The translations under genes were made by a program, and so were the position numbers. The notes under the pieces are model-generated. The model saw nothing but the letters and a program-made list of their open reading frames with translations. It was not told where the DNA came from and did no database searches. Shown piece by piece: positions 5,462 to 18,434 of a DNA stretch of 35,397 nt (position 1 is the first letter of the stretch; each line of letters begins with the position of its first letter). Location: NCBI GenBank assembly GCA_001512695.1, contig LFSJ01000050.1:332-35728 (forward strand). Reading direction: 5' to 3'. The stretch comes from Tepidanaerobacter sp. DTU063 (GTDB lineage: Bacteria; Bacillota; Thermosediminibacteria; Thermosediminibacterales; Tepidanaerobacteraceae).

Positions 5462-5537
5462 CGTATATTTATTCATTATATTGTATTTTAACACGATATT
5501 TTCCGTATATCAATACATATTTTTGTATATTTATTCA
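5462..5537 (-). promoter_or_regulatory. carB promoter overlaid by a putative ArgR (ARG-box) operator array
   Basis: On the minus strand, TTGATA (5508-5513), a 17-base spacer and TAAAAT (5485-5490) form a near-consensus sigma-A promoter. The 14-base word ATGAATAAATATAC occurs twice, and the matching ARG-like boxes are TGAATAAATATACA at 5524-5537 and TGAATAAATATACG at 5462-5475. They resemble the ARG consensus TGAATWWWWATTCA with one and two mismatches. Two weaker boxes, TGTATTGATATACG (5504-5517) and CGTGTTAAAATACA (5482-5495), lie 20 bases from each, over the -35 and -10. Centres are spaced 20, 22 and 20 bases, close to the 21-base spacing of tandem ARG boxes. Repression by an ArgR/AhrC protein is inferred. 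Confidence 0.65.
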
Positions 5538-6818
5538 TCACATTTCCGAATACGCACTTTTGCCGTCCACTATGGTCATGACCGCCTTGCCTTTTAATTT
5601 AAAACCGTGGAAAGGAGTGTTTCGGCCTTTGGAGAAAAATTTGTCTTTATCCACCGTCCATTCCCGCTCCAAATCTATTACGGTAATATCTGCGGGTCCT
5701 CCTACCTTAAGTGTTCCCATGTCAAGGCCTAATACTTTGGCAGGACCCACCGTCATTTTTTCGATGACCGTGTTTAAGGGAATGCCATTTTCCCCTACTA
5801 CTTTTGTCAAGATAACTCCAAGGGCAGTTTCAAGGCCTATCAGGCCAAAAGCCGCCTTGTCAAATTCCAGGTCTTTTTCGTCTATGTGGTGGGGCGCATG
5901 GTCTGTGGCGATGGCATCTACGGTGCCGTCCTTTAAGCCTTCCAGGAGTGCCTCTAGGTCCTCTTTCGTCCGAAGGGGCGGATTTACTTTTGCATTGGTG
6001 TCATAGTCCATTACCGCTTCCTCGGTGAGGGTAAGATGGTGCGGTGTAACTTCACAGGAAACCTTTACTCCTTCCCGCTTTGCCCATCGCACAAGTTCCA
6101 CTGAACCCCTTGTGCTTATGTGGGCTATGTGAACGGGGGTTTTCATTTCTCTGGCCAGCAAGATGTCCCTAGCCACCATTATCTCTTCACAGGCACTGGG
6201 TATTCCCATGAGGCCCAGCAGGGTGGATACGCGGCCTTCGTTGATCTGGCCCCCTTCAAAAAGGCTGGGATCTTCACAGTGGTCGATGATCAGCCTGTCG
6301 AACATGGCCGCATAGACCATGGCCTTTCGCATCAAGGAGGCACTTGCCACGGGCTTACCGTCGTCGGAAAAGGCTACCGCTCCTGCCCTGGCCATGTCTC
6401 CCATCTCGGTAATCTCCTCACCCTTTTGGCCCTTGGTCACGCAGCCTATGGGGAGGACTTTTACCTTTCCCACCTTTGAAGCTTTGGATTTCACGTATTC
6501 GATAAGGGAACTGTTGTCTAAGGGCGGGTTGGTGTTGGGCATGCAGGCCACCGCGGTAAAGCCTCCGGCAGCGGCGCTCATGCTGCCCGACTCTATATCT
6601 TCCTTGTATTCGTAGCCGGGGTCTCTAAAGTGAACGTGCATATCTATTAGACCGGGAGTTGCTAGCTTTCCCGAAAGGTCGATTATCTCTGTATCGCTTA
6701 TATTTATATCCGGCTTAATCTCTGCGATTTTACCATCTACTATTAGAATGTCCATTATGGCATCAAAATTTTGGCCGGGGTCTAAAAGCCTTGCTCCCTT
6801 TAAAAGTGTTTTCATCAT
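5538..6818 (-). CDS. pyrC: Dihydroorotase, class I
   Basis: A 426-residue amidohydrolase that cyclises carbamoyl-aspartate to dihydroorotate. His61 and His63 in [10 protein letters not shown] begin the zinc site, CMPNTNPP is typical of class I dihydroorotases, and HISTRGS and ATDHAPHH carry later metal or catalytic residues. The gene begins with two consecutive ATG codons behind AGGAGG. The first ATG overlaps the pyrB stop by four bases (ATGA), so the two are probably translationally coupled. In class I systems the enzyme often associates with aspartate transcarbamoylase. A 119-bp gap with its own promoter follows before carB. Confidence 0.97.
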
Positions 6819-14628: not shown

Positions 14629-15912
14629 ATGATAACGCGGCGGGAATTTTTAAAACTGTGCCTCTCTTCAGCAGCTCTCAGCCTGTCGGGGATTTTGCTG
14701 CCGAAAGTTGCTGAAGCTTTAGATGAACGGGGAGAAAAAGTAACGGTCATATGGCTTGAAATGATGACCTGCACCGGGGACTTTCTCTCCTTTGCCAACA
14801 CTTTAAACCCTGATGTGGAGCAGCTGATAAAAGATACGATAAATCTTGAATTTCAAAATACCATGATGGCCGCCGAAGGTGAGCTTGCCTTACAGCACCT
14901 GTACGATGTGGCAAGCCGCGAAGAGGGAAGGTACATACTGGTGGCGGAAGGCACCGTTCCCACAAGGGACAATGGCTTTTACGGAATTACCGGTTACTAC
15001 GAAGACGGCACTCCTCTTAAAGACATCGATGCAGTCAAATTCTTGGGCAAGCGGGCAAAGCATGTCATAGCTATAGGTACCTGTGCATCCTTCGGAGGCC
15101 CTTATGCGGCAAGTCCCAATCCGTCAGGATCTGTCCCGGTGCACAAGGTATTAAAAGGGATCCAGGTCATAAACGTGCCTGGATGCCCTGCACATCCGGA
15201 CTGGTTCGTGGGAACTTTATCCCATGTTATTTTATACGGCGTTCCCAGTCTCGATGCCTTTGGACGGCCCCGTATGTTTTACCGGCATACCATACACGAT
15301 TTTTGTCCAAGGCGTCAGCACTTTGAAAACGGCATTTTTGCAAAAGAACCGGGAGATGAGGGATGCCTATTTCAAATAGGCTGCAAAGGTCCCGTTACAT
15401 ACTCCGACTGCCCTACCCGGAAGTGGAACAGCATGCACTTAAATTGGCCGGTAGGTGCCAATACCCCCTGCATAGGCTGCGTTAGCCCCGAATTCCCAGA
15501 TAGAATGTCACCTTTTTTTGCCCATCTGCAGGATGTGAATCTGCCTAATATAAATGTAAATGCTTCATTAATCGGGAAAGCTGCCATAGGCACTGCCGCA
15601 GCAGCCATCGGAACTCATGCCATTGTAAGTGCCGCTAAGGGCCGCATATTCAGGCACCTTGCAGAATCCAGCGAAACCAAAGATGTTGGCAAAGAGCTGG
15701 AGAAAGTTGTGGAGGAGAAGTTAAGTGGGGATAAGATTTCGGATGAAGACATGCAAGGCGTGGAAAAATCCCCGTCAGGGTCTGAAAATAAATCGGTTGC
15801 AAAGCCGGAAAACACCGCAAAACACTGTGAAGAAATTTCCCGGGAGCTGATCCCCTCTCGGCCAAAAATAAAAAGGCCGAAAAAATTGGTTACCAGGAAG
15901 TTGAGAAGGTGA
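14629..15912 (+). CDS. [NiFe] hydrogenase small subunit, Tat-exported, membrane-anchored
   Basis: A 427-residue protein. The twin-arginine signal TRREFLK lies at the N-terminus. The ATG at 14629 has AAGGAG six bases upstream; an in-frame ATG 18 bases earlier has none. Ligands of the proximal cluster are Cys48, Cys152 (GTCASFGG) and Cys186 (PGCPAHP), but the fourth position is Asp51 (CTGD instead of CTGC). Distal-cluster (His, Cys) and medial-cluster residues follow in HTIHDFC, GCLFQIGCKGP, YSDCP and PCIGC. A C-terminal membrane helix (about 314-336) anchors the protein, followed by an unusual charged tail of about 90 residues ending in a very basic stretch, probably cytoplasmic. It passes electrons from the large subunit towards the cytochrome b encoded two genes on. 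Confidence 0.93.
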   Translation: MITRREFLKLCLSSAALSLSGILLPKVAEALDERGEKVTVIWLEMMTCTGDFLSFANTLNPDVEQLIKDTINLEFQNTMMAAEGELALQHLYDVASREEGRYILVAEGTVPTRDNGFYGITGYYEDGTPLKDIDAVKFLGKRAKHVIAIGTCASFGGPYAASPNPSGSVPVHKVLKGIQVINVPGCPAHPDWFVGTLSHVILYGVPSLDAFGRPRMFYRHTIHDFCPRRQHFENGIFAKEPGDEGCLFQIGCKGPVTYSDCPTRKWNSMHLNWPVGANTPCIGCVSPEFPDRMSPFFAHLQDVNLPNINVNASLIGKAAIGTAAAAIGTHAIVSAAKGRIFRHLAESSETKDVGKELEKVVEEKLSGDKISDEDMQGVEKSPSGSENKSVAKPENTAKHCEEISRELIPSRPKIKRPKKLVTRKLRR

Positions 15913-15916
15913 TTGT

Positions 15917-17320
15917 TTGCCTACTAAGATCATCAGTCCAATAACCAGGCTGAACGGTTTTTGGCGCATCGACGTAAATATCGAAAATGGCCAGGTGGTA
16001 GATGCATATTCAAGCGGTATCTTTTTCAGGGGGATAGAAAAGATTCTACACGGCAGGGACCCCAGGGATGCCGTATATTTAACCCAGCGCATATGCGGCA
16101 TATGCTCTACCGCCCACGGCCTTGCCAGCAGCCTCGCCCTGGAGGACGCTTTTAAGATTAAGCCCCCAAGAAACGGCATCATCATCAGGAATCTGCTCTT
16201 TGGAGCAGACCTTTTGCAAAACCACATTCGGCACTTTTACTTTCTGACCGTACCGGATTTTGTCAGGGGACCCGACAGGCCACCCTTTGTCCCCCGATAT
16301 GAAGTAGACTATCGCCTTTCTAGAACCGAAAGCGATAAAATTTACGAAAACTACATGGAAAGTATACACATATCCCGGGCAGTCCATGACATGGTCACCA
16401 TATTCGGTGGCAAAATCCCCCACAACCACGGCATTTTGGCGGGTGGCGCCACGGTCCCACCCACTGCTGACAATGTGCGCATGTTTATGTCGCTACTTCA
16501 AAAAGTGCGGAGTTTTGTTCAAAATAAGATGATGGCTGATTTGGAAAAAATAGCAACAGCTTATGAAGATTATTACAAGATAGGCATCGGCACCGGCAAT
16601 TTGATGGCCTTCGGCATGTTTCCCCATCCCGACAAAAAAGATGATTTTTACTTTAAGCCCGGCATAATCATCGGCAAAAAACGGGAAAAGCTGGATGCCA
16701 TGGCCATCACCGAGCATATAAAGTATTCCTGGTACAGAGCTTCCCCTCCCCTGCATCCGGAGGAAGGGGAAACCCAGCCCGATACCGGCAAAGAGGACGC
16801 ATATTCCTGGGTAAAGGCCCCCAGGTACAAAGGCCATCCGGTGGAGGGCGGGCCACTGGCCAGGCTCATCTTAAGCGGTGATTACAAGGGCGGCCACAGC
16901 GCCATGGACCGGATTGCCGCTCGAGTAATGGAGGCGAATATCGTATCAGAGATGATGGAAGAATGGTGCCGGCAGCTTGAGATAGGAAAGCCTGTATTTA
17001 CACCGTACGATATGCCGGCAAATGCGGAGGGAATCGGGATGGTGGAGGCCATGAGAGGGGGCCTTGGCCACTGGATGAGGATGAGAGCCGGCAGGATAAC
17101 ACATTATCAAATTATCACACCCTCTGCCTGGAACTGTTCGCCGCGGGATGACGAAGGCAGGCGCGGGCCCGTCGAGGAGGCATTAATAGGCACGCCGATA
17201 GAAGATTTTGACCAACCCATCGAGGTGGGGAGAGTTGCCCGAAGCTTTGACCCCTGCCTTGCCTGTGCAGTACATATGATTGACATGAAAGGGCGGGAAA
17301 AATATGTTGAAATCCTTTGA
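15917..17320 (+). CDS. [NiFe] hydrogenase large (catalytic) subunit
   Basis: A 467-residue subunit, shorter than the roughly 550 residues common in group 1. The Ni ligands are Cys60 and Cys63 (RICGICSTAH) and Cys447 and Cys450 (DPCLACAVH). Fourteen residues follow His453 and would be removed by a maturation protease. The usual RxEGH motif near the N-terminus reads RLNGF, with Asn13 in place of the Glu implicated in proton transfer. The start is TTG at 15917 with AAGGTG five bases before it, only four bases after the small-subunit stop. The protein lacks a signal peptide and would be exported with the small subunit. No hyp or protease gene is in the window. Confidence 0.93.
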   Translation: MPTKIISPITRLNGFWRIDVNIENGQVVDAYSSGIFFRGIEKILHGRDPRDAVYLTQRICGICSTAHGLASSLALEDAFKIKPPRNGIIIRNLLFGADLLQNHIRHFYFLTVPDFVRGPDRPPFVPRYEVDYRLSRTESDKIYENYMESIHISRAVHDMVTIFGGKIPHNHGILAGGATVPPTADNVRMFMSLLQKVRSFVQNKMMADLEKIATAYEDYYKIGIGTGNLMAFGMFPHPDKKDDFYFKPGIIIGKKREKLDAMAITEHIKYSWYRASPPLHPEEGETQPDTGKEDAYSWVKAPRYKGHPVEGGPLARLILSGDYKGGHSAMDRIAARVMEANIVSEMMEEWCRQLEIGKPVFTPYDMPANAEGIGMVEAMRGGLGHWMRMRAGRITHYQIITPSAWNCSPRDDEGRRGPVEEALIGTPIEDFDQPIEVGRVARSFDPCLACAVHMIDMKGREKYVEIL

Positions 17321-17984
17321 GGAATCAAAGGAAGCTCAAGACATAGCTGTAAAAAAAAGGAATATTGTCACGATCTCTTATGTCAATATACTCTTGTATC
17401 CACTCCCCATAAGGATCTTTCACTGGGTACTAGTCGCAAGTCTTTCCCTTACCATTATCAGCGGTTTGATGATAAGTTGTGCATATGCCCTAGTTCCAAT
17501 GAAATCGATAAGATTCATCCACATATCTGCTGGCTTTGTGGCCTTTGGCATTGTGCTGTATCGCCTGGGGTACGCCTTTATGTCCGGAGATTACAGGAAT
17601 TTTTCCATAAAACTAAAAGATTTTAAGACATTTCCCGACCTTGCAAAATACTATCTTTTTTTGAGGGAAAACCCTCCAGCTTTAAGGACTAAGTACAACA
17701 TCGGACAGAAAATAACTATGCTGTCCTGGCTAATGGGCATACTGTATCAAACTTTTACCGGCATTATGCTGCTAAACTCATCCTTTGTATCCAAAACTTC
17801 TGCATTATCGCTTTTGTCAAAGTTGATTCTGCCCCAGTACCTTAGAACGACCAAGTACTTTATTTCAATTTATTTCGTCATCACCATTATGCTTCACATA
17901 TACCTGGCCCATACCGAGGATATTGCTAAGAGCCAGTCTATGCTTACCGGTTGGGTAAGGGTAAAAAGGAAAAACAACAATTAA
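17304..17984 (+). CDS. Hydrogenase b-type cytochrome subunit (HyaC-like)
   Basis: A 226-residue membrane protein with four predicted helices, at about residues 28-55, 70-98, 130-157 and 178-205. Candidate haem ligands are His in RIFHWV (helix 1), IRFIHISAG (helix 2) and MLHIYLAH (helix 4), as in the cytochrome b561 domain of hydrogenase I. It would take electrons from the small subunit to the quinone pool. The start overlaps the large-subunit gene by 17 bases, a common sign of cotranslation. A terminator follows about 60 bases later, so the operon appears to have only three genes. Confidence 0.88.
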   Translation: MLKSFEESKEAQDIAVKKRNIVTISYVNILLYPLPIRIFHWVLVASLSLTIISGLMISCAYALVPMKSIRFIHISAGFVAFGIVLYRLGYAFMSGDYRNFSIKLKDFKTFPDLAKYYLFLRENPPALRTKYNIGQKITMLSWLMGILYQTFTGIMLLNSSFVSKTSALSLLSKLILPQYLRTTKYFISIYFVITIMLHIYLAHTEDIAKSQSMLTGWVRVKRKNNN

Positions 17985-18096: not shown

Positions 18097-18288
18097 TTAG
18101 CTCTGGGTTTTGCCATTTTGTTCGGCAAGGGCCTTTTCCGCTTTTTCAATGGCAAGTCTCACCAGATTACCGCAGTTTCTGGATGAAACTTCACCCCAGC
18201 CTTTCTTCGCCACCGTATCTGCCACACCAAGTTCCTTAGCCAACTCGTACTTAAGGTCCTCAGACATGACACTACGACGACGAGCCAT
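18097..18288 (-). CDS. Alpha/beta-type small acid-soluble spore protein
   Basis: A 63-residue protein beginning MARRRSVMSEDLKYELAKEL. The ELAKELG segment resembles the GPR-protease cleavage region, and GNLVRLAIEKAEKALA the conserved second helix of the clostridial SASP group. These proteins coat and protect spore DNA. The start at 18288 follows GGAGGT at normal distance; an ATG 24 bases further upstream has no such site. The Gly-Gly pairs typical of the family centre are partly replaced (KKGWGEVSSRNCGN). A forespore (sigma-G) promoter is expected but I could not find a convincing match. Confidence 0.88.
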   Translation of the reverse strand: MARRRSVMSEDLKYELAKELGVADTVAKKGWGEVSSRNCGNLVRLAIEKAEKALAEQNGKTQS

Positions 18289-18434
18289 GAGCCCACCTCC
18301 TTTGTTTTTCACGCACTATTATTATCTTGTGTTCAATAAAATTTTTTATGATGGTAATTTCTAAACCGCTTTTTAGCTAAATTTTTTTTAAAAAATAAAA
18401 GACATGTAACTGTATATTACAAAGAATCAATGTA

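Follow-up and report, generated by a model that had tools for sequence, protein, structure and literature searches.

A Bacillota clade of [NiFe] uptake hydrogenases without the RxEGH glutamate and with Asp, Asn or Glu at the fourth proximal-cluster ligand position

In this study we focus on a three-gene [NiFe] hydrogenase unit of Tepidanaerobacter sp. DTU063, found in a stretch of 35,397 nucleotides of contig LFSJ01000050.1, which as a whole is called the window here. The genes for the small subunit, the large subunit and a cytochrome b are adjacent or overlapping, and they and all codons given below lie on the + strand. The first gene (14629..15912) encodes a small subunit of the HydA/HyaA type, of 427 residues, with a TAT signal (RREFLK) and matches to TIGR00391 (300.6 bits versus a cut-off of 179.5), PF14720 and PF01058; a hydrophobic helix towards its C-terminus (about residues 312-336, 15562..15636; AlphaFold helix 312-336, hydropathy peak 318) is a likely membrane anchor. 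The second gene (15917..17320) has a TTG start and encodes a large subunit of 467 residues (PF00374, 408 bits), and the third (17304..17984) encodes a HyaC-like b-type cytochrome subunit of 226 residues with His40, His73, His198 and His203 (PF01292, Ni_hydr_CYTB/b561, 75.5 bits, cut-off 30.1), whose TIGR02125 score of 77.9 bits is below that model's cut-off of 121.5. The features of a group 1 membrane-bound uptake hydrogenase are all present, namely TIGR00391 above its cut-off, the TAT signal, two CxxC pairs and the cytochrome b. The original prediction of a short, membrane-anchored form with a HyaC-like cytochrome holds for the anchor helix, the TAT signal and the cytochrome, but the length of 467 residues is ordinary for the clade to which the enzyme belongs (465-480). 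In three relatives of the same family (L220-L222) this unit is flanked by a murI/PG-binding beta-propeller pair on one side and by an Orn/Lys/Arg decarboxylase gene on the other, and these shared flanking genes indicate that it was inherited with its neighbourhood.

The small subunit reads VIWLEMMTCTGDFLS around Cys48 and Asp51, with the motif WLEMMTCTGD. Cys48 (TGC, 14770..14772; invariant in the small-subunit alignment A2) and the conserved Cys152 (15082..15084) and Cys186 (15184..15186, in PGCP) align on the proximal-cluster ligands Cys17, Cys115 and Cys149 of HyaA. Asp51 (GAC, 14779..14781) aligns on Cys20 of E. coli Hyd-1 HyaA (mature numbering), the fourth ligand position of this cluster and the only one at which a Cys or His cluster ligand of the small subunit is not kept. 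The CTGD sequence that had drawn attention to this enzyme is thus read in frame at the expected place. A search of the window protein for a spare cysteine that could replace Asp51 found none: those of the mature part are all conserved cluster ligands, and the sole remaining one, Cys11, lies inside the signal peptide. An extra cysteine (PGCPC) is present in 25 of 109 relatives, where it could matter; in the window enzyme the position is Ala188, so that it should play no part there.

The large subunit reads SPITRLNGFWRIDV around Asn13 (TRLNGFW). In the alignment to E. coli Hyd-1, Asn13 (AAC, 15953..15955, in frame within RLNGF as predicted) falls on HyaB Glu28, the glutamate of the RxEGH motif. 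Three further changes had escaped the first reading: Asn102 (AAC, 16220..16222), which replaces the canopy Asp (HyaB Asp118), Met379 at the position of HyaB Pro508, and, in the small subunit, Glu44 (GAA, 14758..14760; mature position 13 of HyaA), which alignment counts mark as a clade-specific acid. The Ni-Fe site ligands Cys60 (16094..16096), Cys63 (16103..16105), Cys447 and Cys450 (17255..17266, in DPCLAC) are invariant in the large-subunit alignment A3 and His453 is nearly so; the canopy Arg380 (17054..17056; HyaB Arg509, the Arg of (P/M)RG) is likewise invariant, and the final His is followed by a C-terminal extension of the cleavable type, MIDMKGREKYVEIL. A selenoprotein can be ruled out, the codon of Cys447 being TGC with no in-frame TGA. 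A sequencing error, already considered unlikely in the original prediction, can be excluded together with chance, since Asp51 and Asn13 both recur in independent genomes of the same family (71-88% identity) and of other families (56-57%). AlphaFold modelled the large subunit with a pTM of 0.90 and with least confidence in the N-terminal segment that contains Asn13 (pLDDT <50, residues 9-13). For the small subunit the model is poor from about residue 225 onwards, with a pLDDT of 67 around the medial and distal clusters, and was therefore kept out of geometric arguments.

The enzyme was placed among about 140 aligned subunit pairs, made up of named relatives, further genomes and, as references, sequences of E. 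coli, of Cupriavidus pHG1 and of other plasmids. The named relatives were fetched partly with a search pattern containing LQNH, which inflates the conservation of Asn102 (Asn in 109 of 113 Glu-less Bacillota); the columns of Glu28 and of small-subunit positions 44 and 51 (S44 and S51) lay outside the patterns. In the large-subunit tree, computed with the trait columns excluded, the short Bacillota large subunits form a single clade of 74 rows (SH-aLRT 96), and the small-subunit tree gives the same clade plus one sequence, L036 (99.9). The window enzyme belongs to a 16-row subclade with the motif R[IL]NG[FLT] (98), while other subclades carry TRISGF (Clostridium, Bacillus and others), TRVHEP (Sporomusa, Pelosinus), TRANSP (Desulfotomaculum relatives) or TRLSGL. 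Thermincola is also among the genera of the clade, and its cultivated members include S. ovata, P. fermentans, C. magnum, Alkalihalophilus pseudofirmus OF4 and Desulfotruncus arcticus. The RxEGH Glu is absent from all 105 clade members for which both subunits were read, being replaced by Asn, Ser, His or other residues, and the same 105 of 105 have Asp, Asn or Glu in place of the fourth proximal-cluster Cys. The pairing of the two changes, presented earlier as a peculiarity of the window enzyme, is indeed the hallmark of this whole clade. Likewise, the statement that CTGC is found in nearly all enzymes of group 1 was too strong, since besides the Bacillota clade the 1h enzymes read have Asp, and 1b/1f-like and 2a-like enzymes have Asn.

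The sequences are best read as one clade, widespread in Bacillota, with a single loss of the RxEGH Glu. L036 is the sole Glu-bearing sequence grouped with it: it keeps the Glu (RVEGHM) and Asp118 beside an Asn at S51, and the tree without rogue rows places it as the sister of the Glu-less enzymes (SH-aLRT 91.8), which suggests that in the Bacillota lineage the Cys was probably lost ahead of the Glu. A joint clade of the Glu-less Bacillota and the group 1h hydrogenases, which also lack the Glu, was rejected (p-AU 0.0015), so the Glu has been lost twice, both times in enzymes that are also without the fourth proximal Cys. Two independent losses are too few for the pairing of the two changes to become significant on the tree.

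Every Glu-less enzyme has Asn, Asp or Glu in place of the fourth proximal Cys (108/108 in one count, 109/109 in another that included HofKG of group 1h). The converse does not hold: enzymes from Sulfurovum and Sulfobacillus (1b/1f-like), 2a-like enzymes and that of Ideonella have Asn or Asp and keep the Glu, so a strict two-way covariation was rejected in favour of a one-way rule. Asn or Asp at this position has been noted before in groups 1f, 1h and 2a (PMC5364354). A column scan for positions that separate Glu-less from Glu-containing enzymes pointed to Glu44 of the small subunit. Position S44 is Glu in 95 of 105 Glu-less Bacillota, and mostly Gln or His in Glu-containing enzymes, only 5 of 33 of which have an acid there. 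The ten exceptions (9 Gly, 1 Ile; the Gly mainly from one sublineage) all have Asp, never Asn, at S51, as do four 1h enzymes. Conversely, an acid is found at S44 in all 64 Glu-less enzymes with Asn at S51, so that each of the 109 Glu-less enzymes has an acid at S44 or at S51. The Glu that directly precedes Cys17 in the classical ECTGC motif is mostly Thr, Ser or Gly in the clade.

Taken as a whole, these observations are best explained, at about even odds (roughly 0.5), if the three genes encode a TAT-exported, membrane-anchored [NiFe] uptake hydrogenase in which Asp51 would complete a 3Cys:1Asp proximal ligand set and Glu44 and Asp51 would provide the proton exit. A normal Ni-Fe site with four cysteines would split H2. 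The electrons would first enter a proximal cluster bound by Cys48, Cys152, Cys186 and, most likely, Asp51, and would reach the cytochrome by way of the medial and distal clusters, which are conserved. The proton would most likely cross the subunit interface via the small-subunit carboxylates Glu44 and/or Asp51, the former acting as a relocated proton relay. The sequences and trees show the clade, its residues, their co-occurrence and the probable order of the losses; ligation by Asp51, the proton route and the direction of catalysis are inferred.

For the ligation, group 1h provides the precedent: in the 1h enzyme with this Asp, the residue is a ligand of the proximal [4Fe-4S] cluster (PMC7174314, PMC5364354), and the 3Cys:1Asp ligand set of that enzyme is matched by the window enzyme at the level of sequence position, which by analogy makes Asp51 most likely the fourth ligand. 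On the tree, however, about 12 of the 14 changes at S51 are exchanges between Asp, Asn and Glu, which seems odd for a strict metal ligand and would be easier without a metal bond. Asp51, or Asn in the relatives, might then not bind iron, and three Cys would hold a [3Fe-4S] proximal cluster of raised potential with no role in proton transfer. In the group 2a enzyme Huc all three clusters are indeed of the [3Fe-4S] type, an assignment based on the density and on the fourth coordinating residue (PMC10017518), and 2a-like enzymes read ACSGN or ACNGN with the Glu kept. This explanation appears rather unlikely, as the window enzyme has the Asp of 1h and not Asn, and as a [3Fe-4S] cluster alone does not account for the Glu being missing only where the Cys is missing.

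For the proton, both carboxylates of the published large-subunit routes are missing (Glu28 and Asp118, each replaced by Asn), so an exit via the small subunit is most likely. The Glu loss may nevertheless need no replacement, given that in Thiocapsa roseopersicina the Glu14Gln variant of HynL retains about half of the activity and a second route through Arg487, Asp103 and His104 has been proposed (PMC3325256). Protons could accordingly exit through a water chain, with Asn13 holding a water molecule, or through the corresponding large-subunit Arg380 and His103, both invariant in the clade, without recourse to any small-subunit acid. We consider this unlikely: the Asp of the second route is Asn102 in the window enzyme and the D103L variant of T. 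roseopersicina lost all activity (PMC3325256), the Glu is called an essential gate elsewhere (Dementin 2004, as cited in PMC11212049), and such a route leaves the S44 or S51 acid in 109 of 109 enzymes unexplained. An exit via Glu44 and/or Asp51 remains our preferred reading, and the unusual proton pathway put forward in the original prediction is a reasonable inference. More tentatively, the carboxylate may have moved to the small subunit next to the proximal cluster, so that proton and electron would leave on the same side and be coupled there, an arrangement that 1h enzymes would have reached independently.

The loss of two residues held to be essential, together with paralogues that are also without the proximal Cys17 (L040, L188), could instead mean that the clade has no hydrogenase turnover and is decaying, or has taken on another reaction or a role in sensing. 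This is very unlikely: all Ni-Fe ligands are still present, as are the C-terminal His with its extension, the TAT signal and the cytochrome, and conservation is strong over 45-86% identity. Moreover, the window genome (82.8% complete) contains a single PF00374 protein, the window large subunit, and yet retains hypF, hypB, hypA and a HycI-type protease on one contig (C98) and hypD and hypE on another (C82); this maturation set most likely serves the window enzyme, and its retention for a single enzyme argues for a real Ni-Fe centre. The same genome has four [FeFe] hydrogenase matches. In five genomes of the window's family, two of them 99% complete, futalosine-pathway matches were absent and MenD matches were below cut-off, and thus no menaquinone synthesis is recognisable in these members.

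In architecture this is an ordinary-looking uptake hydrogenase, and what seems new is the wide Glu-less clade with its pattern of compensation. Textbook accounts of the [NiFe] hydrogenase mechanism include the glutamate, and models of proton-coupled electron transfer are built on it; in D. fructosovorans its substitution reportedly abolished activity. A natural Glu-less clade in cultivated genera (Sporomusa, Pelosinus, Clostridium, Bacillus) thus offers ready test enzymes for the essentiality of the Glu, and bears on what can replace it and on why its loss is found only where the proximal Cys has already been replaced. For annotation, neither Asp nor Asn in place of the proximal Cys ligand should on its own be taken as a sign of group 1h or of O2 insensitivity.

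Among known systems, the group 1h enzyme HofKG of Cupriavidus necator shares both changes. HofK (CDGD) and HofG (TRIVGSL) are identical to the crystallised chains of 5AA5, with Val in place of the RxEGH Glu (chain C), and 5AA5 is the only solved enzyme found with both an Asp at the ligand position and no Glu. The two changes were therefore already paired in a crystallised enzyme, while for the pairing, the motif name or the Bacillota subgroup no description was found in the open-licence literature, so that this branch is apparently undescribed so far. The CxGD motif and the missing Glu, common to HofK/HofG and three other 1h enzymes, could suggest that the window enzyme is itself a 1h member, of the actinobacterial, high-affinity, O2-insensitive type. 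This is hardly credible and is ruled out by tree and motifs: the joint clade is rejected, 1h forms a separate lineage, and HofK is the weakest PDB match of the small subunit. HofKG also differs in its large subunit of about 600 residues, in keeping Asp118 and in having no anchor and no S44 acid. Enzymes of group 1h are without a TAT signal and have other L1 and L2 motifs (PMC5364354), unlike the window enzyme with its TAT signal and its motifs TQRICGICSTAH and SFDPCLACAVH. The likeness to oxygen-insensitive 1h enzymes proposed earlier does not extend to descent, and since the hosts of the Bacillota clade are mostly anaerobes the link to O2 insensitivity carries little weight.

The nearest solved large subunits are those of [NiFeSe] and similar short group 1 enzymes (D. 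vulgaris Hildenborough, 2wpn; Dm. baculatum, 1cc1), with 2wpn_B as best PDB match of the model (TM 0.93, 42% identity) and a similar short length; the [NiFeSe] enzymes, however, have Glu, CxGC and, in the type enzymes, selenocysteine where the window enzyme has Asn13, CTGD and Cys447, and the NF033181 ([NiFeSe]) score of 562.9 bits is below its cut-off of 600. The O2-tolerant group 1d was rejected, as the two extra cysteines of its six-Cys proximal cluster (Cys19 and Cys120) are absent, both positions being Gly in the window enzyme. Membership of group 2a was rejected as well: 2a-like enzymes read share an Asn at the fourth ligand position, and Huc (7utd, 7uur) has only [3Fe-4S] clusters (PMC10017518), but in group 2a the Glu is kept (RVEGD in 2a-like sequences), there is no cytochrome b and the position in the tree is far off. 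By build alone, the window enzyme resembles the HydDB group 1a HydABC hydrogenases, which likewise consist of small, large and b-cytochrome subunits in Bacillota hosts (Desulfitobacterium hafniense, ACL20766-9); Bacillota enzymes of this build are called group 1a and assigned to uptake (PMC9888536).

The alteration of the proximal-cluster site goes further in two paralogous small subunits, encoded at positions 5464-6408 of locus L040 (genome G008, of the same family as the window) and 1971-2972 of locus L188. Both read WLETNDSGDNN, with Ser replacing the proximal Cys17 and Asn at the position of the window Asp51, so that two of the proximal Cys remain. Neither protein showed a TAT motif, and the large-subunit motif of these paralogues is TRLSGLL. 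Among 109 relatives, 25 (e.g. L027, L028, L058 and L074) carry an additional Cys immediately after the proximal PGCP (PGCPC), where the window has Ala188. This Cys could serve as a spare ligand in those 25 enzymes.

Locus L036 (5680-8258, genome G050) retains both the Glu (RVEGHM) and the canopy Asp118 in its large subunit, and its small subunit nonetheless reads CSGN; the final conserved His, equivalent to HyaB His582, is replaced by Gln. This enzyme is a possible stepping stone.

Searches of genomes G000, G002, G004, G008 and G010 returned no futalosine-pathway match and no MenD match over the cut-off. The hydrogenase cytochrome b is retained in all five despite these absences.

A small acid-soluble spore protein-like gene was read at 18100-18315 of the window, on the minus strand. 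Since relatives keep it in synteny together with an adjoining spore-germination-like gene set, the host probably forms spores. The hydrogenase of L084, recorded as Chryseobacterium sp. ISL-80, is Bacillus-type and belongs to the Glu-less Bacillota clade; this record is probably mislabelled or contaminated.

Close to the large-subunit C-terminus, the Clostridium enzymes L096 and L108 read SPTD instead of the usual SPRD (Arg to Thr). Related Bacillota enzymes (e.g. in G053, G238 and G060) contain one or two in-frame TGA codons, which makes them probable [NiFeSe] selenoproteins. The Glu is retained in the members whose complete sequence was read (L034, L035 and L186).
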